The notes beneath the pieces are model-generated. The model ran no database searches. It saw nothing but the letters and a program-made list of their open reading frames with translations, and was not told where the DNA came from. The translations under genes and the position numbers were made by a program. 64,000 nucleotides of DNA from an uncultured Latescibacterota bacterium (lineage in GTDB: Bacteria > Latescibacterota > UBA2968), in NCBI GenBank assembly GCA_951812755.1, contig OX638329.1:5667563-5731562 (forward strand). Reading direction: 5' to 3'. Positions 45,209 to 56,555 of this stretch are shown here, one piece after another (within the stretch, counting starts at the first letter, position 1; every line of letters starts with the position of its first letter).

Positions 45209-46711
45209 ATGGCAAAACAACCCAACCTCTTACTCATCACAACAGACACCCAGCGCTGTGACACACTCAACTGCATGGGCAGTTCATTTGCCCATTCCCC
45301 TCATACAGATCGCCTCGCAGCCGAAGGCGTCATGTTCACACAGGGCCACACCCCCTCGCCGGTATGCAACCCCTCGCGCAGCAGCCTCATCACCGGCCTG
45401 CACACTCCCATACACGGCGTATGGGAAAACGGCATGACCCGCCTCACCCACTTCCCAACCCTACCCGACCTCCTCAAAGAACAGGGCTACACTAACATCA
45501 TGGTCGGCAAACAGCACTTTGGTCAAACTCCCGACACCTTCGACATCATCATCGGCCAGGACGACTACAGTGAATACATCCCAAAGTATGGATTCACACC
45601 CAAGGACTGCCACAAACAACCCACACCCGTACCCGAAGAACACTTCCTCGACACCTTTTTCGCCAAACAAACCATCGAACAAATCGATCAGGTCGTCAAG
45701 AGCGATTCGGGCCCTTTTTTCGCCTTCTGCTCATTCCCGGCGCCGCATCCACCCGAATGTCCACCGGGCGACTGGCTCACCATTTACGACAACTGCGACA
45801 ACCTGCCCGACCTCAATTACACCCACCGCGAAGAACAAAATCAACCCACACACACCAAACGCCTGCTCGGCATCAAACCCGAAAACGAATGCCATCCAGG
45901 CGAAGACCCAAACACGATCGGGTACTGGCGAGAAGCCATTGGCCGCATCTACGACCCGCAACATCACGACACCATCATGGAACTGCGCAAAATCTATTAT
46001 GCGTATGCCGCGTACTGCGACGCCCTGCTCGGTCGCATCCTGAACTACCTCGACCAGAATAACCTCCGGGAAAACACCCTGATCATCTTCACATCCGATC
46101 ACGGACAACAATTCTTCGACCACGGCTTTAACGACAAACACAACTTCTACGATGAATCCTGGCGCGTCCCCTTTATCATGAGCATGCCAGGCACCCTTCC
46201 ACAAGGAGAAACGCGAGACTTCGCCATCTGGAACGACATCACCACCACCCTCCTCGCGGCTGCTGGCACCGAATGCCCCTCCATGCAGGGCTTCTTCGAC
46301 CTCTTCACCCCACTCGCCAGAGGCGAACAATCCCCCCGCCGCTGCGCCGTTGCCACCCTCTACAAATCCTGCGCCGTCGCCACCAAACGCTGGAAACTCG
46401 ATTACTTTTTTGAAGAAGACGAAGGCCGTCTTTTTGACCGCCTCAATGATCCCAAAGAACAAAACAATCTATACGACCAACCGGACCATCTCGAAATCCG
46501 CAACGAACTGCGCCACGCCCTCTTATCCTGGCGCGGCGACATCGCCGACCTCAAAACAGCACAGGAAGGCACAACCAAAAACAGAGGCCCAAACGCCCGG
46601 GGATACACCAACGTAGCCCCTCGCATTGCCCCACACACCCATCAAATGCGCGGCACCGATGCCGAACAGCGCCTCAATGAAAAATGTGAACGGATAGATG
46701 AGATGGGGTAA
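45209..46711 (+). CDS. Sulfatase (cysteine-type)
   Basis: A 500-residue sulfatase with Cys53 in PVCNPSRSSLITG (CxPxR), the N-terminal metal site LLLITTDTQR and IIFTSDHGQQFFDHG. The middle insert (DDYSEYIPKYGF to HFLDTFFAKQ) is longer than in the other two. AAGGA precedes the ATG. The gene is followed 9 bases later by an intrinsic terminator and ends the plus-strand pair. Confidence 0.93.
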   Translation: MAKQPNLLLITTDTQRCDTLNCMGSSFAHSPHTDRLAAEGVMFTQGHTPSPVCNPSRSSLITGLHTPIHGVWENGMTRLTHFPTLPDLLKEQGYTNIMVGKQHFGQTPDTFDIIIGQDDYSEYIPKYGFTPKDCHKQPTPVPEEHFLDTFFAKQTIEQIDQVVKSDSGPFFAFCSFPAPHPPECPPGDWLTIYDNCDNLPDLNYTHREEQNQPTHTKRLLGIKPENECHPGEDPNTIGYWREAIGRIYDPQHHDTIMELRKIYYAYAAYCDALLGRILNYLDQNNLRENTLIIFTSDHGQQFFDHGFNDKHNFYDESWRVPFIMSMPGTLPQGETRDFAIWNDITTTLLAAAGTECPSMQGFFDLFTPLARGEQSPRRCAVATLYKSCAVATKRWKLDYFFEEDEGRLFDRLNDPKEQNNLYDQPDHLEIRNELRHALLSWRGDIADLKTAQEGTTKNRGPNARGYTNVAPRIAPHTHQMRGTDAEQRLNEKCERIDEMG

Positions 46712-46720
46712 ACAAAACGC

Positions 46721-46756
46721 AAAAGACTCGAATGCCTTTCGGCACCCGAGTCTTTT
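46721..46756 (+). terminator. Bidirectional intrinsic terminator
   Basis: Stem AAAAGACTCG (46721-46730) / CGAGTCTTTT (46747-46756). It serves the converging sulfatase (plus) and DUF1800 (minus) genes: A-rich and T-rich arms give a U-run on both transcripts. Confidence 0.85.
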
Positions 46757-46778
46757 CACTTAAAACCAGCGCATCTAT

Positions 46779-48596
46779 CTACCGGTATTGAAACTCCGGC
46801 GATCCTATCAACATACTCACCACCTGCATATCCTTGCGCTTGGCGTCTGCGGGAATCGTCTCTTTCACCTCTGACGCAATAGCACTGGTATCTTGTGCTG
46901 GCAGCAGCAACTTGCTATACATCGCCAACGCTTGCTCCGTTGTCGGCGAGTGCTCGCTCTCCCTGGGCAACCGCTTCAGCACAATCCCTCTAATTCTACC
47001 TGTAGCCAGACGCACACCGAAATTCATCCGCGCGATCAACGTACCCGAATTCGCCCACGATTCGGCATAATCCGGAAAACCCGTAGGCGGCAAATAACCA
47101 TACAGCGGCTCGCCCATGCGATCAAACCAGTACATCATCGGCTGCGGATTCCTTATATCCGCTTCCAGCGCGCGCAGAGAACTCGCCGCCAGTTCTAACG
47201 GCGACTTCATCTTGCTCCGCTTCTTCGCCTCTGCCCAAAACACACGCGATTGCGCCAGCGTAGCTATCACAGCGGCGATATCCCCATCGGTCTTGGTAAA
47301 GGTTTCCGCCATCTCATCAATCACATCATCTGACGGTGCATCGTTTACAAACCGACGCGCCAACTTCGTAGAAATAAAACGCGCAGTTGAAGGATGCCTG
47401 GTCAGCATATCCAGAACGCGCTCACCCTCTTCCAGACCGCCTCCTGCGGGGAATGTCTCACCCAGCACCACCTTGGTCTTTTTGTCGTGCCAGACATTGC
47501 GGAACAGAAATTCACCCTGGCGAACGAGATTCTTATTGCCATTGGCAATTGCCTTATTGGTATTCTTGCGCCCATTCCCATAAGGCATCGCAGTCCAACC
47601 CGTCAAAACGCGCGCAACCTCTGTGACATCTTGCTGCGTGTACCCACCATCCACACCCAGGGTATGCAACTCCATCAACTCGCGGGCATAATTCTCATTC
47701 AAACCATACTTGCGTCTTGGAGGCGTCTTCGGCTTTGCAACGGGCTTGGGGGTAGCCTTTGCCATCTCACCACCCATCATCTCACCACCCATCATACCGC
47801 CGTCCATACCACCATCCATCCCACCGTCCATACCCATCTCGCCCATTGCCACTTCCTTCTTCGGCTGAGGCTTGGGTTGATTCTGCTGCTCTGGCGGTGC
47901 CATACGCGACTGTGCATTATCCAGATAATGCAACATCGCAGGATGCTTCGCCGTCGCACCCAAAATCGTGCGGAAATTGCCCAACACATTGGGACGAATC
48001 GCATCGCGCTCATAAGCGAGCACGCGACTGCGCGCCCCACCATCGCGCGTGGTCACATTGAAGTGATTAAACCAGAAATCCGTCAGTACCTCGGTGAGTT
48101 GATTCTCGCTATACACCGCCCGCATCACCTTCTGACCCTTCAGTTCCTGATTGGAAAGCAAACCATAAGCACGCAACCCGTGTTTCTCGCGATACACCTT
48201 CATTTTTTCATTTATCTCTTTCAGAGGCATCTTTTCGTCATCGATCACCCCTTCCTTCTCCATCCTATTGCGAAGCCGCCCATTTTGAACATAAACGTCG
48301 TACATCTCGGGCAACGTCATCGACAACGCGGGAAAAACCTTCAGACGTTTTTCCAACTCAGCATCCGGCAAATTGCCCTTCAACTGCTGAGCCAGCCACT
48401 TCTCGGGACCCATCTGCGCCACTCTTTCCACTTCACCGGGCCGCGCACCAAAAGCAAAACGCTCTAAGAGATACGCCGCTGCCTGCTCCTTACTCAGCCC
48501 TGCCTTTTTATAGGGCAATTTCAACCCGGCATCCGCCGAAGCCCCTGCAAGCAACGCACCACAGCACAAAACAATAAGTGAAAAACGAAATATCAT
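46779..48596 (-). CDS. DUF1800-family secreted protein (paralogue A)
   Basis: The start ATG 48594-48596 (MIFRFSLIVLCCGALLAG) has GGAGG 6 bases upstream; a signal peptide of ~23 residues follows. The 605-residue mature-type protein has the DUF1800 signatures AYLLERFAFGARPGEVERV, KLARRFVNDAPSDDVIDE and YGLNENYARELMELHTLGVDGG (cited in part). At ~249-280 lies a low-complexity tract of MDGG and MMGG repeats rich in Met, Gly, Asp and Glu. DUF1800 is of unknown function and usually pairs with DUF1501. It is the most repeat-expanded of three copies. Confidence 0.92.
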   Translation of the reverse strand: MIFRFSLIVLCCGALLAGASADAGLKLPYKKAGLSKEQAAAYLLERFAFGARPGEVERVAQMGPEKWLAQQLKGNLPDAELEKRLKVFPALSMTLPEMYDVYVQNGRLRNRMEKEGVIDDEKMPLKEINEKMKVYREKHGLRAYGLLSNQELKGQKVMRAVYSENQLTEVLTDFWFNHFNVTTRDGGARSRVLAYERDAIRPNVLGNFRTILGATAKHPAMLHYLDNAQSRMAPPEQQNQPKPQPKKEVAMGEMGMDGGMDGGMDGGMMGGEMMGGEMAKATPKPVAKPKTPPRRKYGLNENYARELMELHTLGVDGGYTQQDVTEVARVLTGWTAMPYGNGRKNTNKAIANGNKNLVRQGEFLFRNVWHDKKTKVVLGETFPAGGGLEEGERVLDMLTRHPSTARFISTKLARRFVNDAPSDDVIDEMAETFTKTDGDIAAVIATLAQSRVFWAEAKKRSKMKSPLELAASSLRALEADIRNPQPMMYWFDRMGEPLYGYLPPTGFPDYAESWANSGTLIARMNFGVRLATGRIRGIVLKRLPRESEHSPTTEQALAMYSKLLLPAQDTSAIASEVKETIPADAKRKDMQVVSMLIGSPEFQYR

Positions 48597-48624
48597 TGCA
48601 AACCTCCTTGAAAAGCATCCACAG

Positions 48625-48686
48625 AAAAAACGCGAATGAGCGGGGTACAACTGGCCGCCTCTCAGGCCAGTTCATTTGAGCGTTTT
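48625..48686 (-). promoter_or_regulatory. Extended hairpin with U-run upstream of DUF1800 A
   Basis: Read on the minus strand, AAAACGC..ATGAACTGGCC pairs with GGCCAGTT..TCATTCGCGTTTT, the inner stem AACTGGCC/GGCCAGTT being perfect. Six T residues follow, and the ribosome site of the gene begins about 15 bases later. It has the form of a terminator or leader attenuator. Confidence 0.6.
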
Positions 48687-48768
48687 ACGCAGATGGACAC
48701 AGATAAAAGTCAACTTTATGTAACTATCAACGCGAATAAAAGTTAAAAAAAACCATTCTGGACGCCTG

Positions 48769-48961
48769 CTTAAGAAGCTGTTTTAAAATTAATACCTGAT
48801 GTTACGCATGTCCGGCGTTTTGTCATGCTGAGCGTAGCCGAAGCATCTTTTCCACCTAATTTGGTAAGAGATTCTTCGACTCCGCTGCGCTCCGCTCAGA
48901 ATGACAGGGCAATAGCGCATCGCCGAGAAGGGGCAAAATGAGTTTTAAAACAGTCTCTAAG
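48769..48961. mobile_element. Putative MITE (about 190 bases, imperfect terminal inverted repeats)
   Basis: The ends CTTAAGAAGCTGTTTTAAAA (48769-48788) and the reverse complement of TTTTAAAACAG..CTCTAAG (48943-48961) match over about 19 bases; CTGTTTTAAAA is perfect. Inside is a second palindrome of ~86 bases: TGTCATGCTGAGCGTAG (48821-48837) against CGCTCAGAATGACA (48893-48906). There is no transposase, so this is a non-autonomous element. Confidence 0.55.
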
Positions 48962-48974
48962 GCATGCAGAGCCT

Positions 48975-48999
48975 GCCCCTGTATGTTTTAAGCAGGGGC
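48975..48999. terminator. GC-rich hairpin downstream of DUF1800 B
   Basis: Stem GCCCCTG (48975-48981) / CAGGGGC (48993-48999) with an 11-base loop. It lies after the paralogue B gene and could terminate its transcript, but no T-run follows. Confidence 0.35.
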
Positions 49000-49055
49000 G
49001 TGACAAGATTACTGACGTTGTACCCCTTACTTCACATAGGTACCCATCCGCCTGT

Positions 49056-50816
49056 TTATCGGTATTGAAATTCCGGCGACCCCAGCAGCATGCTGATCAC
49101 CTGAACCTCTTTGCGTTTGGCATCAGCGGGAATCGACTCTTTGACCTCTGACGCAATAGCACTCGTATCCTGCGCTGGCAACAGCAACTTGCTATACATC
49201 GCCAATGCCTCATCAGTCGTCAGACCAGTGCTATCCTGGGACAATTGCTTCAATTCAATCCCTCTAATTTTGCCCGTAGCCAGATGGATACCAAAATTCA
49301 TTCGCGCAATCAACGTACCCGAATTTGCCCACGACTCGGCATAATCCGGAAAACCCGTAGGCGGTACATAACCATACAGAGGCTCGCCCATGCGGTCAAA
49401 CCAGGACATCATCGGCTGCGAATTCTTCACATCCGCTTCCAATGCGCGAAGAGAACTCACCACTAATTCAAACGGAGACTTCATCTTACTGCGCTTCTTC
49501 GCCTCTGCCCAAAATTCCCTGGACTCCGACAACGTAGCCATCACAGCAGCCAAATCCCCATCCGTCTTGCGAAATGTCTTCGCCATCCGCTCAATCAGAG
49601 CCTCGGGAGGATTGTCATTGATAAACCGACGCGCCAACTTAGTCGAAATAAAATGTGCAGTTGAAGGGTGTTTGGTCAGCATATCCAGAACGCGCTCGCC
49701 CTCTTCTATGCCACCACCTGCAGGGAACTTCTCACCCAACACCACCTTGGCTTTTTTGTCGTGCCAGTCTCTGCGGAACACAAATTCGCCCTCGCGAATG
49801 AGTCTTTTACTTCCATTTGCAATTTGCTTCTCGAGATTTTTACGCGCATTGTTATAAGGCATCGCAGCCCAACCCGTCAACACCCGCGCAACTTCGGTAA
49901 CATCTCCCTGCGTGTATCCACCATCCACGCCCAGGGTATGCAACTCCATCAACTCGCGGGCATAATTCTCATTCAAACCGTACTTGCGTCTGTTTTTTGG
50001 AGGGGGCTGCGCCTTTGCAGGAGCGCCCATCATACCGCCATCCATACCACCATCCATACCCATCTCACCCGATGCCACCTCCTGTTTGGGCCTGGGTTGA
50101 TTCCTTGGCGGTGGCGACGCCATGCGCGACTGTGCATTATCCAGATAATACAACATCGCCGGATGCTTTGCCGTCGCGCCCAAAATCGTGCGGAACTTGC
50201 CCAGCACATTGGGGCGAATCGCATCGCGCTCATAGGTAAGCACATGACTGCGCGCACCACCATCGCGCGTGGTCACATTAAAATGATTAAACCAGAAATC
50301 CGTCAGCACCTCGACGAGCTGATTCTCGCTATACACAGCCCGCATCACTTTTTGCCCCCGCAGTTCCTTATTGTAAAGCGCATTCTGAGCAAGCAACCCG
50401 TGCTTCTTGCGATACACGCTTATCTTCTGATTCATCTCTTTGCGATTCATCTTTGCGGCATCAATCACGCCCTGCCGCTCCAGTATTCTGCGAATCCGCC
50501 CATTCTGCACATAGATTGCCTGCATTTCAGCCTGCGTCATTTTCAACGCGGGAAACGCTTCCAAGCTCTTGTCCAACTCAGCATCGGGCAAATTGCCCGC
50601 CAACTGCTGAGCCAGCCACTTCTCGGGACCCATCTGCGCCACCTTTTCCACTTCACCTGGCCGCGCACCAAAGGCAAAACGCTCCAAAAGATACGCTGCA
50701 GCCTGCTCCTTACTCAGCCCTTCCGCCTTATAGGGTAGTTGCAACTCAGCATTCGCCGGAGCTACCCCAAGCAGCGCACCACAGCACAAAACAACAAGTG
50801 CAAAGCGCAATGTCAT
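49056..50816 (-). CDS. DUF1800-family secreted protein (paralogue B)
   Basis: The start ATG 50814-50816 (MTLRFALVVLCCGALLGV) has GGAGG 6 bases upstream. The 586-residue protein has the same DUF1800 signatures as copy A (AYLLERFAFGARPGEVEKV and YARELMELHTLGVDGG). Its repeat tract (~247-263) is short, MGMDGGMDGGMMG. C-terminal LLPAQDTSAIASEVKESIPA is shared. It is secreted, probably to the periplasm or surface. It follows the DUF1501 gene by ~127 bases and is preceded by a strong hairpin. Confidence 0.92.
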   Translation of the reverse strand: MTLRFALVVLCCGALLGVAPANAELQLPYKAEGLSKEQAAAYLLERFAFGARPGEVEKVAQMGPEKWLAQQLAGNLPDAELDKSLEAFPALKMTQAEMQAIYVQNGRIRRILERQGVIDAAKMNRKEMNQKISVYRKKHGLLAQNALYNKELRGQKVMRAVYSENQLVEVLTDFWFNHFNVTTRDGGARSHVLTYERDAIRPNVLGKFRTILGATAKHPAMLYYLDNAQSRMASPPPRNQPRPKQEVASGEMGMDGGMDGGMMGAPAKAQPPPKNRRKYGLNENYARELMELHTLGVDGGYTQGDVTEVARVLTGWAAMPYNNARKNLEKQIANGSKRLIREGEFVFRRDWHDKKAKVVLGEKFPAGGGIEEGERVLDMLTKHPSTAHFISTKLARRFINDNPPEALIERMAKTFRKTDGDLAAVMATLSESREFWAEAKKRSKMKSPFELVVSSLRALEADVKNSQPMMSWFDRMGEPLYGYVPPTGFPDYAESWANSGTLIARMNFGIHLATGKIRGIELKQLSQDSTGLTTDEALAMYSKLLLPAQDTSAIASEVKESIPADAKRKEVQVISMLLGSPEFQYR

Positions 50817-50828
50817 TGCAAACCTCCA

Positions 50829-50867
50829 AAAAAACTCGAGTGCCATACTCCGACACTCGAGTTTTTT
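50829..50867 (-). promoter_or_regulatory. Strong hairpin with U-run directly before the DUF1800 B ribosome site
   Basis: Stem AAAACTCGAGTG (50831-50842) / CACTCGAGTTTT (50854-50865). On the minus strand the second arm is followed by T residues and then GGAGG, only a few bases on. It has intrinsic-terminator form but the gene starts right after it, suggesting an attenuator, a terminator of the DUF1501 transcript, or a stabilising 5' structure. Confidence 0.65.
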
Positions 50868-50943
50868 ATCCTGAAGCGGTGTAAACTGCACACGCGCACC
50901 ACAACGTGTCAGTACAGCATCAAATGAGTGGTCGATAATGACT

Positions 50944-52212
50944 TTACGTCATCACCTTAAACCGCTCACCTTCCCAACCCGGGAACATCGCAATATCATG
51001 GGAGCGATCAATATTCAGATGCTTACCCGCCACATCGGCAAACACAGAACGGAAATCTGTCGTCACGGGCAAATCGCGCCGATCTTCGAGTGCATCTTTC
51101 ACCAGCTTCTCTGGCACATTTCCGTGGATCTTTCCACCATCCACATTATTCCCCAGCACAAACAGACACGACCCGCGGCCGTGGTCCGTACCCAGAGAAC
51201 CATTCTGATGCACCGTGCGACCAAACTCGGTCATCGTCATCAGAACCACATCGTCCTGATACGTACCCAGATCTGTCCAGAATGCCGCGATAGACTTAGA
51301 CATCTCGTCTGCTCTGCGCTGGAAAGAACCCGTCGTTGTGCCCTGTTGCACATGCGTATCCCATCCGCCAGTCTCGGTAAAGGCAACCTCAAGCCCCACG
51401 TCCGACTTGACCAGCAACGCAATCTGTTGCAGCCTGCGACCCAATGCCGTATTGGGATATTTCGCGCCTTCGGCGGGCTTGTAATCCCTCACACCGATTT
51501 TTTCCAACAACTCAATCGCATCAAAACTCTCCTCGCTCACCCTCTGAACCAGGCGTTTGGCACTCCGCGCATACATCGCCTCAAACCCTTCCTCCACCTG
51601 TTCGGCCGCCTGCGGATTATTCGGCACCTGAATGCCAAAGGAACGCAGATCATCCACTGCAATCGAAGGCTCCTTCCCGTAAAATGCGCGCGGCAACGCT
51701 CTCGTCAATGCCACTGACCGGAAGGGCGTACCCTCGTGCCCGAGCAAACCCACAGCCCGATTGAGCCAACCCGTCCGCGTACCTTTCACACCCGGCGTCC
51801 CATTTTCCATATAATCCTGGGCATCAAAGTGCGATCGCGTCTTATTCGGCGAGCCTACGCCGTGTACAATAGCCAGACGACCTTCTTTGTACAGCGGTGC
51901 CAGATCCGCAAAAGAGGGATGCAATGCAAAACGACCATCCAGATCCGTCAGCTCATTTTTCGGATCGGTCAGGTGCATAAACAAATTGGGGCGCGCCTCG
52001 GCGAGTGCCGGATCGTTAAACGGCGTCACCGCCATCAAACCATCCATTGCCCCGCGCTGGAAAATCGTCACCAGCACTTTGCGACGGCTATGTGCCAGCG
52101 GATTATTCGCAGCATCAGCCGCGCGGCTCAAGAACAGCGGCGTACCCCCAAACGAGGCAGAAAACAATGCCAATCCGCTGCCCTTCATAAATGCTCTTCG
52201 ACTCCATTCCAT
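50944..52212 (-). CDS. DUF1501-family Tat-exported protein
   Basis: A 422-residue protein with a twin-arginine signal, SRRAFMKGSGLALFSASFGG (residues 4-23). DUF1501 belongs to the alkaline-phosphatase-like superfamily; visible motifs are VTIFQRGAMDG near the N-terminus and TEFGRTVHQNGSLGTDHG with GGWDTHVQQG as probable metal-site regions. The protein is expected to fold in the cytoplasm with a cofactor before export. It is the usual partner of DUF1800. It follows DUF1800 C by 20 bases, so these two are certainly co-transcribed. Confidence 0.9.
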   Translation of the reverse strand: MEWSRRAFMKGSGLALFSASFGGTPLFLSRAADAANNPLAHSRRKVLVTIFQRGAMDGLMAVTPFNDPALAEARPNLFMHLTDPKNELTDLDGRFALHPSFADLAPLYKEGRLAIVHGVGSPNKTRSHFDAQDYMENGTPGVKGTRTGWLNRAVGLLGHEGTPFRSVALTRALPRAFYGKEPSIAVDDLRSFGIQVPNNPQAAEQVEEGFEAMYARSAKRLVQRVSEESFDAIELLEKIGVRDYKPAEGAKYPNTALGRRLQQIALLVKSDVGLEVAFTETGGWDTHVQQGTTTGSFQRRADEMSKSIAAFWTDLGTYQDDVVLMTMTEFGRTVHQNGSLGTDHGRGSCLFVLGNNVDGGKIHGNVPEKLVKDALEDRRDLPVTTDFRSVFADVAGKHLNIDRSHDIAMFPGWEGERFKVMT

Positions 52213-52232
52213 AACTCTATCTCCTTTCCGAT

Positions 52233-54026
52233 TTATCGGTATTGAAATTCCGGCGACCCCAGCAACATACTGATCACCTGAACCTCTTTGCGTTCGGCAT
52301 CAGCGGGAATCGTCTGTTTAACCTCTGACACAATAGCACTGGTATCTTGCGCTGGCAACAGCAACTTGCTATACATCGCCAATGCCTCTTCCGTTGTCAG
52401 ACCACTGCTATCTTCGGGCAATCGCTTCAGTGTCACTCCGTTAATGCGACCAGTGGCCAGATGGATACCAAAGTTCATTCGCGCGATCAGCGTACCCGAA
52501 TTTGCCCACGACTCGGCATAATCGGGAAAACCAGTAGGCGGCAAATAACCATACAGCGGCTCGCCCATGCGATCAAACCAGCGCATCATCGGCTGTGGAT
52601 TCTTTACATCGGCTTCCAGCGCGCGAAGAGAACTCACCGCCAGTTCAAACGGCGACTTCATCTTGCTGCGCTTCTTCGCCTCTGCCCAAAACACGCGGGA
52701 CTGCGCCAGCGTAGCCATCACAGCGGCGATATCCCCATCGGTTTTGGTAAAGGTTTTGGCCATCTGATCAACCAGATCATCTGACGGTGCATCGTTTACA
52801 AACCGACGCGCCAGCTTCGTAGAAATAAAACGCGCAGTTGAGGGATGACTGGTCAGCATATCCAGAACGCGCTCACCCTCTTCCAGGCCACCACCTGCGG
52901 GGAACTTCTCACCCAACACCACCTTGGCCTTGTCGTCGTGCCACGATTTGCGGAACACAAAATCGCCCTGAAGAATGTTATTTTCATTCCCATTCGCCAT
53001 TTGTTTTTCGATATTTTTCCGCCCATTGCCATAAGGCGCCGCAGCCCAACCCGTCAACACGCGCGCAACCTCCGTAACATCACGCTGCGTATATCCACCA
53101 TCCACACCCAGGGTATGCAACTCCATCAACTCGCGAGCATAATTCTCATTCAAACCATACTTGCGCTTGCGTCTTGGAGGCGTCTGAGCCTTGGCAGGAG
53201 CCTTCTCTGGGGCCTTTGCCATCTCGCCACCCATCATCTCGCCATCCATACCACCATCCATACCCATCTCACCCGTTGCCATCTCCTTCTTTGGCTCGGG
53301 CTTTGCCGGTTCCCGTTCCGATGGCGGTGCCATACGAGACTGTGCATTATCCAGATAATACAACATCGCGGGATGCTTCGCCGTTGCACCCAAAATCGTG
53401 CGGAAATTGCCCAGCACATTGGGACGAATCGCATCGCGCTCATAAGAAAGGGTGCGACTGCGCGCCCCACCATCGCGCGTGGTCACATTGAAGTGATTAA
53501 ACCAGAAATCCGTCAGCACCTCAGTGAGCTGATTCTCGCTATACACAGCCCGCATCAGCTTCTGACCCTTCAGTTCCTGATTGGAAAGCATACCATAAGG
53601 ACGCAACCCGTGCTCCTTGCGATACGCGCTTATCTTTTCATTCATCTCTTTGCGAGGCGTCTTTGCGGGATCAATCAACCCCGCTTTCGCCACTATTCTG
53701 CGAATCCGCCCATTATTCACATAAACTTCGGCCATCTTTTCCTGCGTCATTTTCAGCGCGGGAAATGCTTCCAATCGTTTTTCCAACGCCGCATCCGGCA
53801 AATTGCCCTTCAACTGCTGCGCCAGCCACTTCTCGGGACCCATCTTTGCCACTTTTTCCACTTCACCTGGGCGCGCACCAAAGGCAAAACGCTCCAGAAG
53901 ATACGCTGCAGCCTGCTCCTTACTCAGCCCTTCCGCTTTGTAGGGCAGTTTCAACCCGGCCTCCGCCGGAGCTACCGCAAGCAGCGCACCGCAACACAAA
54001 ACAGCGAGTGCAAAGCGCAATATCAT
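52233..54026 (-). CDS. DUF1800-family secreted protein (paralogue C)
   Basis: A 597-residue DUF1800 protein beginning MILRFALAVLCCGALLAVAPAEA with GGAGG upstream. Motifs AYLLERFAFGARPGEVEKV, LARRFVNDAPSDDLVDQ and YARELMELHTLGVDGG are present. The Met/Gly/Asp tract at ~249-270 is medium length (MGMDGGMDGEMMGGEM). It is the first gene of the DUF1800-DUF1501 pair. Close DNA similarity to A and B in the leader (caaggaggtttg) suggests recent duplication. Confidence 0.93.
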   Translation of the reverse strand: MILRFALAVLCCGALLAVAPAEAGLKLPYKAEGLSKEQAAAYLLERFAFGARPGEVEKVAKMGPEKWLAQQLKGNLPDAALEKRLEAFPALKMTQEKMAEVYVNNGRIRRIVAKAGLIDPAKTPRKEMNEKISAYRKEHGLRPYGMLSNQELKGQKLMRAVYSENQLTEVLTDFWFNHFNVTTRDGGARSRTLSYERDAIRPNVLGNFRTILGATAKHPAMLYYLDNAQSRMAPPSEREPAKPEPKKEMATGEMGMDGGMDGEMMGGEMAKAPEKAPAKAQTPPRRKRKYGLNENYARELMELHTLGVDGGYTQRDVTEVARVLTGWAAAPYGNGRKNIEKQMANGNENNILQGDFVFRKSWHDDKAKVVLGEKFPAGGGLEEGERVLDMLTSHPSTARFISTKLARRFVNDAPSDDLVDQMAKTFTKTDGDIAAVMATLAQSRVFWAEAKKRSKMKSPFELAVSSLRALEADVKNPQPMMRWFDRMGEPLYGYLPPTGFPDYAESWANSGTLIARMNFGIHLATGRINGVTLKRLPEDSSGLTTEEALAMYSKLLLPAQDTSAIVSEVKQTIPADAERKEVQVISMLLGSPEFQYR

Positions 54027-54043
54027 TACAAACCTCCTTGAAA

Positions 54044-54059
54044 ATTCCCCAAAGGGAAT
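54044..54059 (-). promoter_or_regulatory. Short hairpin upstream of DUF1800 C
   Basis: Stem ATTCCC / GGGAAT with a 4-base loop, followed on the minus strand by TTTTC and then AAGGAGG. It is at the same position as the hairpins before copies A and B but has no sequence in common with them. Confidence 0.4.
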
Positions 54060-54154
54060 GGCATCTGTGAATACATATAAAATATATCACAATATCTAAT
54101 GGTGCAATACATTTTACATTCTTTTACACTTTTAGAACAAAACAGGCTCAACAA

Positions 54155-55492
54155 TTACCCTTGATCGAACAAATCTCCCGGAACGGGCTTAACAACAGTC
54201 GAGTCAACCCCAAATCCTTCCAGTTGCTGGGGATTCAGTGGGGCTTGCCTGTACTGCAGGATATAAGACGCGCCGCCCTGTATCAGATTCACGGTCAAAA
54301 TATCACCCTCTTTGCTGAAATCCACATCGGACGCCGTCACATAAGTCAGGCTCGAGCCATCTTGTGAACCGCCCCGCAATTGCCCATTGAGCACGGGCAC
54401 GCCATTTTGAAGCACATATCCCGCACGCCTGTTGAAAAACCGGGATTCATCGGCATGCGTGGAAAACTCGAGCGGCCTGGCAAATGTGATTTCCACCAGA
54501 CCTTGTTCGATGATCACGCCATTCTCAATGAGAGGATCCACCACGCCATCGGCATGCTCATGTCCAGATGGCGCGCGGTGGCGAGGGCTGCGCCGCTCCA
54601 GAACAGGGAACCACTGGATGTCCAGTGTAGCCGGAATACTCGGGAATAGCGCTTCGGAATCTATCCACGTGCCATTGAGGTGAGCATCAGCCAATAACCA
54701 TGTGCCAGAATACGGCGGCGAATGGGTATCCAGTTCTGCAACCACATCGGCAGGGGGTTCATAAATGGCATAGCGCAAGCCCTGACCGTCCTCCACAAAC
54801 ATCATCATGCGATGTGGGCGAGTATCTTCCCAGGGCCATGGACTCTGGAAACAGATGGCTGTTCGATTGTTGCGGTTTTCAAACGAGCGATTGTCTGGCC
54901 TCTGAGCGTTTGGGATGGTAATGCGAACGCGCCCATTACCCAGCACCCTCACACGGCTGTCCTCCTCGGCCCCGGGCAGCAGGCGCAACAGCCTGTTAGG
55001 CTCGTTCAATGCATCAGACGCCTCATTCAGCGGAAACGGACTCGTGTAGTTGTTGCGTATATCGTTGGGGAATTCACCGGCCATCGGCAACCTGGGACCG
55101 CTCTGCCAAATATAAAACGAACCGAGTGACAGCCTGGCGCGCTCTCGATTATTGCGAGCAAATTCAACGCGAAGTTCATCGCGCGTGGCCTGTGATGTAC
55201 GCCAATAATGCCGCACAGTTTTTTCATACGTCACAGACGCCATTGGCGGTGCAGTAAGCGGTGGATTGTACACAAATACCACCGTGCCATAATCCGATGC
55301 CGCTGCCGTAAAAATGATATGCCGGGGCGTGCCCTGGGGCGGATCGGCGACATCTATGGCACTGCCGCCATTCGTCCCGGAAATCAGCCGATAGCTGCCG
55401 CGCCACTCCTCGGCAGGCTGAACCGGGATATCGCGAGTACATCCCGCGGTACCCAACACACCAATCAGACAAAATAATAAAAATTTACGCAT
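54155..55492 (-). CDS. Lipoprotein of unknown function
   Basis: A 445-residue protein with a signal peptide and lipobox GTAGC (MRKFLLFCLIGVLGTAGC, C18). The mature part is largely beta and without a recognised domain. It has RLPMAGEFPNDIRN, VRITIPNAQRPDN and an asparagine-rich centre. It is last in the minus-strand run 63554-54155 with a PorV-like and a very large secreted protein, so it is probably an accessory surface component. GGAGG precedes the ATG. Confidence 0.7.
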   Translation of the reverse strand: MRKFLLFCLIGVLGTAGCTRDIPVQPAEEWRGSYRLISGTNGGSAIDVADPPQGTPRHIIFTAAASDYGTVVFVYNPPLTAPPMASVTYEKTVRHYWRTSQATRDELRVEFARNNRERARLSLGSFYIWQSGPRLPMAGEFPNDIRNNYTSPFPLNEASDALNEPNRLLRLLPGAEEDSRVRVLGNGRVRITIPNAQRPDNRSFENRNNRTAICFQSPWPWEDTRPHRMMMFVEDGQGLRYAIYEPPADVVAELDTHSPPYSGTWLLADAHLNGTWIDSEALFPSIPATLDIQWFPVLERRSPRHRAPSGHEHADGVVDPLIENGVIIEQGLVEITFARPLEFSTHADESRFFNRRAGYVLQNGVPVLNGQLRGGSQDGSSLTYVTASDVDFSKEGDILTVNLIQGGASYILQYRQAPLNPQQLEGFGVDSTVVKPVPGDLFDQG

Positions 55493-55512
55493 TTTGTGAT
55501 TCCTCCTATTCA

Positions 55513-55541
55513 GTAGGGGCGGGTTTCAAACCCGCCCCTAC
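55513..55541. repeat. Perfect 29-base palindrome
   Basis: GTAGGGGCGGGTTT (55513-55526), one central base and AAACCCGCCCCTAC (55528-55541). A very stable hairpin of REP type between the PorV-like gene and the lipoprotein gene; it may end transcription or stabilise the mRNA. Confidence 0.75.
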
Positions 55542-55547
55542 AAACAT

Positions 55548-56555
55548 CTAGAACGTTCCCGAAAGCGTCAAACGCAGCGGTCGCTCTTTAATTGCACCGC
55601 CGATATCGCTATACGAAACATCCACACTTATCTTGCGCTCTTCGCTCACATTGAGATTTATACCCGCCCCCACGCTCCAGGTCTCCACATCGTACCTGAA
55701 CTTATAACCGGCACGAAGTGCCAGCATATTTTGTATCCACAACTCACCGCCAATGTGATCGCGCTCACCATAGTCGCGGAAAAACACATGCTCATAAGCA
55801 GTCGTCAGATAAAGCGGATCGCCCTGCTTGCCCAGCAATTCCATCGCAATAGCCAGATTGTAGTAAAACGGCAGGCGATAATCCTCGGTCAGCACTTCCT
55901 TATTCCCACCGAGGTTGCTCATGGTCATACCCACGCGCAGACTCTTGAAACCCGTGTAAAAGATCGTGCCAACATCAAATGTCGTGGAACTCACATTGAC
56001 CACATGAATTTGAGACCGCACATAGCGCAGGCGAAAACCCATCGAAAACTTATCGGTCAGTTGCTTGGCAAAAGACGCCGCAACCGAAAAATCGCCGAGC
56101 TTGATGTTCCGCCCCGTGCCATTGGGTTGCAAAGGCGTGGTCTCTTCCACATCGGGATAGGTAAACGAGCGAAAGGCGACACCCACAACGCCTATGGGAA
56201 TGCGATAGGCAACACCCGCAGCCCCCATTTTGGTGCCCACCAGCCACTCGTTATAAGAGGCCAGATATGCTATATTGTCGATATGCACCAGCCCGGCTGC
56301 ATTCTGAAATATCGAGTGAATATCTCGCGACGTGCCCACATTGGCATCGGCCATGCCAGCCAGGCGCGCAGACGCCGAAATCTTCAAAAGCGCGAAGCCA
56401 CTGCGCGCAATGCGGTTGCCCTTATCGCCTTCCGAGCGATAGTGCGGTTCTGTCAATACGGGCGGCAGATTCGTAAGGCTTGTCTCTTGCTGAGCCATGG
56501 CACTTTGAGGGCTTAGAAAAAGCGCGATAGCTGCTATCCAGATCATACGTTTCAT
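55548..56555 (-). CDS. PorV/PorQ-family outer-membrane protein
   Basis: The start ATG 56553-56555 (MKRMIWIAAIALFLSPQSAMAQ) has GAGGAG upstream. The 335-residue protein has a signal peptide and then the family's IARSGFALLKISASARLAGMADANVGTSRDI (cited in part) followed by NAAGL. Repeated beta-strands end in LRLTLSGTF, an outer-membrane-type C-terminus. PorV/PorQ proteins help T9SS secretion or carry cargo at the surface in the Bacteroidetes and relatives. It lies next to a 913-residue secreted protein with a sorting-type C-terminus, consistent with that role (inference). Confidence 0.85.
   Translation of the reverse strand: MKRMIWIAAIALFLSPQSAMAQQETSLTNLPPVLTEPHYRSEGDKGNRIARSGFALLKISASARLAGMADANVGTSRDIHSIFQNAAGLVHIDNIAYLASYNEWLVGTKMGAAGVAYRIPIGVVGVAFRSFTYPDVEETTPLQPNGTGRNIKLGDFSVAASFAKQLTDKFSMGFRLRYVRSQIHVVNVSSTTFDVGTIFYTGFKSLRVGMTMSNLGGNKEVLTEDYRLPFYYNLAIAMELLGKQGDPLYLTTAYEHVFFRDYGERDHIGGELWIQNMLALRAGYKFRYDVETWSVGAGINLNVSEERKISVDVSYSDIGGAIKERPLRLTLSGTF

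Follow-up and report, generated by a model that had tools for sequence, protein, structure and literature searches.

The 64,000-nucleotide stretch analysed here (the window) covers positions 5667563-5731562 of the 6.53-Mb, one-contig genome of an uncultured Latescibacterota bacterium, and contains a gene cluster in which each of three DUF1800 genes has an inverted repeat ahead of its ribosome site. Sponge-associated Latescibacterota are reportedly the topic of one published study, PMC12993501, and the loci closest to the cluster in the public collection are labelled Candidatus Latescibacterota, uncultured Latescibacteria or, in one metagenome-assembled genome, Gemmatimonadota. Read along the minus strand, which carries all features given with coordinates below, the genes follow in the order PorV-like, a gene without Pfam match, c3 (DUF1800), DUF1501, c2, c1 and a convergent gene, which we take to be sulfatase-like from the look of its sequence. 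The DUF1800 proteins are encoded by c3 (52233-54026; PF08811, E 2.3e-132), c2 (49056-50816; PF08811, E 3.8e-135) and c1 (46779-48596; PF08811, E 2.4e-130), and the partner of c3 is the DUF1501 protein (50944-52212; PF07394, E 1.6e-25). Five DUF1800 genes were found in the whole genome, the other two being L004 and L005. A literature search without full texts gave no direct precedent for DUF1800 with DUF1501 or for terminators before a Shine-Dalgarno (SD) sequence.

A first-pass annotation of this DNA had described a hairpin immediately upstream of the ribosome site of each DUF1800 copy, followed by a short U-run, and had read conserved position with differing sequence as selection for structure. 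The three inverted repeats are present on the minus strand, H1 before c1 (48625-48686), H2 before c2 (50828-50867) and H3 before c3 (54044-54059), and so are the runs behind them (T6, T7 and T3-4, respectively). The words 'immediately upstream' suit H2, about 1 nt from GGAGG, and H3, 4 nt away, but not H1, whose near edge is 15 nt from AAGGAGG. Likewise, 'each copy' applies to the three in the cluster but not to L004 and L005, whose start candidates show no compact hairpin near the ribosome site. When the hairpin regions were compared with dinucleotide shuffles, only H2 was clearly more stable than expected (z = -5.8, none of 200 shuffles equally stable), while 18/200 shuffles were as stable as the H1 region (z = -1.3) and 113/200 as stable as that of H3 (z = +0.23).

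The search was extended to ten more genomes of the genus, with the cluster being read wherever contigs permitted. The c3-DUF1501 pair is present without c1 and c2 in G008, and a DUF1800-DUF1501 pair also occurs in G013, outside the genus; c3 and DUF1501 are therefore regarded as the older pair. The protein tree places c2 in a single clade (support 0.998) and nests c1 and c2 among c3 sequences. Neither G004 nor G006 has c2 between DUF1501 and c1, and on the G005 contig DUF1501 leads straight into a c1-type leader. For c1 the ratio of nonsynonymous to synonymous substitution rates (dN/dS) is 0.06-0.20 over 21 pairs.

H2 has the features of an intrinsic terminator, namely a stable hairpin (-22.7 kcal/mol) and a T7 tract. 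Among 11 loci read, ten have the DUF1501 stop codon followed by a hairpin and a T-run; the exact H2 pattern matched six of the 11, and the remaining loci were judged by reading the sequence. An identical ACTCGAGTG..CACTCGAGT stem is found in G000, G001, G002, G003, G004 and G009 (with one pair G-T in G009), G005 and G006 carry a double change from A-T to G-C at its base, and in G008 and G013 the hairpin is built from other letters. No hairpin after DUF1501 was seen in G019. The H2-type terminator is thus not tied to the gene that follows it: it is kept in G004, G005, G006 and, in its other letters, G008, all of which are without c2. Since c2-less genomes retain it, H2 belongs to the upstream genes, and we regard it as the predicted intrinsic terminator of the c3-DUF1501 pair. 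Of the functions proposed in the first-pass annotation, insulation from upstream transcription fits H2 in this role. Rho-independent terminators are resembled in the stable stem, the T7 tract, the location 75-90 nt past the stop codon and the retention in relatives; unlike them, H2 has a U-tract that stops only 0-2 nt short of the ribosome site of the next gene.

This short distance weighs against a purely fortuitous neighbourhood of terminator and gene. The c2 leader with its GGAGG (50817-50827) lies directly behind the H2 T-run, and the spacing from U-tract to SD is about 0-2 nt in all six genomes with c2, which pure coincidence would not require. As c2 is one clade, however, the spacing is inherited. 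For comparison, the own-genome sample of 1.264 Mb (1.2 Mb of tiles plus the window) has 189 intergenic terminator-like sites, of which 18 lie at most 60 nt from the next start on the same strand, ten of these starts being without an SD; genes in the sample were called with a simple codon-usage script, so that starts and intergenic lengths are rough. The c2 gene itself is intact in all five full copies and under purifying selection (dN/dS 0.14-0.25, 10 pairs), and for this reason it is presumably expressed. Genomes without c2 have the same sequence ahead of H2, which makes read-through past H2 the simplest source of a c2 transcript. In such a scheme H2 would halt most transcription from c3-DUF1501, c2 would be made from the fraction reading through, and H2 would therefore lower c2 relative to its neighbours.

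Just before H2, in the 3' untranslated region (UTR) of DUF1501, lies a noncoding conserved element of 66 nt (50878-50943). Over 28 pairs from eight genomes its mean difference is 2.2% vs 15.5% at the four-fold sites of DUF1501, about seven times less; the spacer between the PorV-like and hypothetical genes differs by 15.4% (five genomes) and the c3 leader by 10.8% (six genomes). The presence of 2-nt indels makes it unlikely to be coding. The order of conserved element, terminator and SD is known from attenuators, and the first-pass annotation had suggested one here; H2 would then be a conditional terminator of c2, with the 66-nt element as its sensing part. Besides this order, the low divergence of the element and the constraint on c2 speak for such a device. 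Yet the element and H2 are not tied to c2, the element being equally conserved in genomes that lack the gene, whereas a riboswitch or attenuator should be conserved together with the gene it controls. Moreover, a fold cut before the 3' arm does pair part of the 5' arm of H2 with the element, but the bases involved are invariant and covariation gives it no support. We consider an attenuator unlikely, and a terminator of the upstream pair remains our reading of H2.

In its own right the 66-nt element is a candidate regulatory 3' UTR or small RNA. It is absent from G008 and has no match in G007. A search for a wider family with model R1 returned strong matches solely at this locus. A diverged copy with its own terminator is located on contig 42 of G004 (E 0.00125), two look-alikes in the own genome are weak (E 0.82) though similar by eye, and among the other weak matches that were read several are either the reverse strand of the H2 terminator or the terminator after c1; two further ones, L271 and L272, show nothing beyond a terminator-like end. 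Rfam gave no family match at E up to 1 for positions 46000-56000.

The hairpin in front of c1 has another history. Its c1 leader (48597-48614, TTTTCAAGGAGGTTTGCA) has the same letters as c3 leaders, and H1 is positioned upstream of it, as a nested repeat with hairpin and T-run around a core hairpin element at 48640-48673 (GAACTGGCC..GGCCAGTTGTACCCCGC). When the 101-base c1 leader was compared with the own genome, at least 39 other matches were obtained (the best 40 of 187 candidates being scored, self included), and among the matches listed 13 others align over at least 70 nt. Nine more loci of the H1 type were inspected, and the nested element was found in all of them, once with a mismatch in the core. 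A short form of 25 bp has 13 exact copies in the own genome and none in a reversed control. The core family of about 34 bp, GAACTGG(C/T)C..CCAGTTGTAC(A/C)CCG(C/T), occupies 12 sites in the sample, all 12 outside called genes and again with none in the reversed control, and its members are often nested within other short repeats.

Relatives show the leader in different states. An alignment of five of the ten c1 leaders contains an empty site in G004, G005 and G010b, the short form in G006 and the nested form in G000. In G001, G002, G003 and G009 c1 follows closely behind c2 without H1, and the c1-type copy G010a stands after an H2-type terminator, so that H1 is present in two of the ten leaders. 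Both the many intergenic copies and the empty sites expected of a dispersed repeat were thus observed, and because of these copies across the genome and the empty sites in relatives H1 is an insertion and not a retained leader structure. It is best described as a dispersed nested repeat that landed in the c1 leader, between the older c1 upstream region and the SD. H1 would be a passenger there; dampening or insulating of c1 may occur. Palindromic repeats of the repetitive extragenic palindromic (REP) or miniature inverted-repeat transposable element (MITE) type are similar in their many near-identical, hairpin-forming intergenic copies nested in other repeats. An assignment of H1 to the system of REP elements and REP-associated tyrosine transposases (RAYT) was rejected: the own genome has no match to the Y1 transposase family PF01797, for which control genomes gave matches. 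We found no name for the H1 family. Just upstream of the c1 leader, at 48769-48962, stands a further dispersed repeat; it is about 190 bp long and has at least 39 other genomic matches, mostly at 94-99% identity.

The third hairpin, H3, is small (6 bp, -5.9 kcal/mol) and directly precedes the c3 leader (54027-54043, TTTCAAGGAGGTTTGTA). The c3 gene of G005, whose 5' end is missing, was excluded from the set of leaders. CCATTCCCTTTGGGGAATTTTTCAAGGAGG is almost invariant among nine c3 leaders from the genus and the G007 copy, and the H3 pairs are kept in ten of ten genus leaders, one of them with a three-base loop. The G008 leader differs from the other c3 leaders at six of 30 positions, four of which form two double changes inside H3; the other two together turn a T-A pair into C-G in an alternative, SD-covering helix. 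Of 400000 random placements of six substitutions, 159 preserved all six H3 pairs and included two or more double changes. We describe H3 as a short c3-leader-specific hairpin that is retained across the genus. It would probably lie close to the 5' terminus of the c3 mRNA and modulate decay or ribosome access, in competition with the fold over AAGGAGG. Leader hairpins such as the ompA 5' stem-loop and SD-covering RNA switches act on mRNA decay or ribosome access, and H3 may be likened to them in its conservation just before the SD and in the alternative fold that covers it. Stabilisation of the 5' end had been suggested for all three copies; such a leader role, or one in controlling initiation, is possible for the one copy c3, where the hairpin is conserved in the genus.

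Several observations count against H3 as a selected RNA structure. The covariation comes from one relative, G008, and its count is reached by 27 of 500 shuffles; RNAalifold favours the SD-covering fold over H3; and G013 and G019 are without H3. The SD-covering helix has a single double change, a count equalled in 98 of 500 shuffles, and the predicted occupancy of H3 across species ranges from 0 to 0.98. Percentiles of SD accessibility are approximate, comparing GGAGG of c3 with the first five SD-match bases in the sample, and were given no weight. Since symmetric changes of this kind would also be expected at a palindromic DNA operator, they do not prove a role as RNA. Such an operator, with the G008 changes tracking a changed regulator, is conceivable but doubtful. 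ATTCCCnnnnGGGAAT is a perfect palindrome and adjoins a second, AT-rich inverted repeat, which fits an operator; it also adjoins the SD, however, and as it is found nowhere else in the own genome, an operator would serve a single gene. H3 could also be the terminator of the gene preceding c3, given its position between the two and the TTTTC behind it. This is very unlikely considering its six pairs and low stability, and considering that G007 keeps H3 beside a DUF1800 copy on a fetched contig where neither the PorV-like nor the hypothetical gene was detected. The retained c3-leader hairpin is also no module shared by many leaders. H3 has a single site in the own genome, and this candidate was dismissed after each genus genome gave at most one exact match to the pattern, the single match of G008 lying elsewhere.

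The AT-rich imperfect inverted repeat upstream of H3 (54060-54097, TGTGATATATTTTAT..TATTCACA) is near-perfect in G001, G002 and G010 and decayed in G000; it may be an operator, a second hairpin or a part of the c3 promoter. The consensus scans for promoters and terminators were at chance level (12 vs 11.7 in shuffles and 15 vs 14.6) and are not taken as evidence; none of the predicted sigma-70 sites fell on the c3 leader.

Why, then, do the three hairpins occupy the same place? Similarity between the copies starts at the U-run/AAGGAGG leader, and the sequence farther upstream differs at each site: TTTTCAAGGAGGTTTG(C/T)AATG is common to the c1 and c3 leaders, and c2 shares the sequence from GGAGG on. 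Because the common unit starts at the SD or slightly ahead of it, differing upstream neighbours come to stand beside the SD. We also asked how common hairpins before SDs are among genes of the sample with an SD and an intergenic space of 60 nt or more, allowing loops of 3-12 nt, as loops of 3-8 alone miss H2. A perfect stem of at least six pairs ending no more than 8 nt from the SD was found in 9 of 253 genes vs 33/595 shifted controls and 28/1012 shuffles; a stem of at least eight within 8 nt occurs once among the 253, at c2. A habit of this genome to place hairpins before SDs was thus set aside, there being no excess over shifted positions.

It could be argued that selection maintains a hairpin ahead of the ribosome site in every DUF1800 copy, with different sequences supplying it. 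Each of the three copies in the window does carry one, and H2 and H3 are near the SD and kept in relatives. Against this, seven of ten c1 leaders have no hairpin and the remaining three hold two repeats and, in G010a, an H2-type terminator; L004 and L005 are without one, and H2 occurs without c2. The empty sites in c1 leaders already contradict such selection, which we consider extremely improbable, and the original claim of selection for structure at all three sites is not borne out, H1 being a repeat insertion and H2 persisting where c2 is lacking. Instead, the comparisons point with good confidence to three features with no relation to each other, brought together at the border of a copied gene cassette, their shared position being mostly coincidence. 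The case shows how an argument from conserved position can fail when tandem gene copies each bring a short leader into different surroundings.

The cluster is mostly ordinary. Three points in it invite testing, in a phylum that is uncultured and occurs in sponges: a terminator reaching as far as the ribosome site of the following gene, a leader that may have two states and a noncoding element that is nearly invariant across a genus. H3 and the 66-nt element stand out as worth attention. The ends of the latter resemble the H1 core by eye (GAACTG..CAGTTnTACnCCGC), a lead rather than a test. A bolder and rather unlikely combination would make the c3 leader a two-state RNA, with H3 as the open state and the helix over AAGGAGG as the closed one, both selected, and the 66-nt element an old copy of a hairpin superfamily of the H1 core, co-opted for a regulatory function, either in the 3' UTR or as a small RNA, with its end at H2.

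Two minor observations concern the cluster as a whole. Every DUF1800 copy in it has a low-complexity stretch rich in methionine and glycine (GEMGMDGGMDGGM..) in the middle of the protein, of varying length (47759-47850, 50020-50080 and 53200-53270). A terminator-like hairpin also follows c1 (46721-46756) and has the stem motif ACTCG(A/G)G in common with H2; the stem ACTCG(A/G)G..TCGAGT occurs in the sample only at the terminators after c1 and after DUF1501, which suggests their common descent within the cluster.

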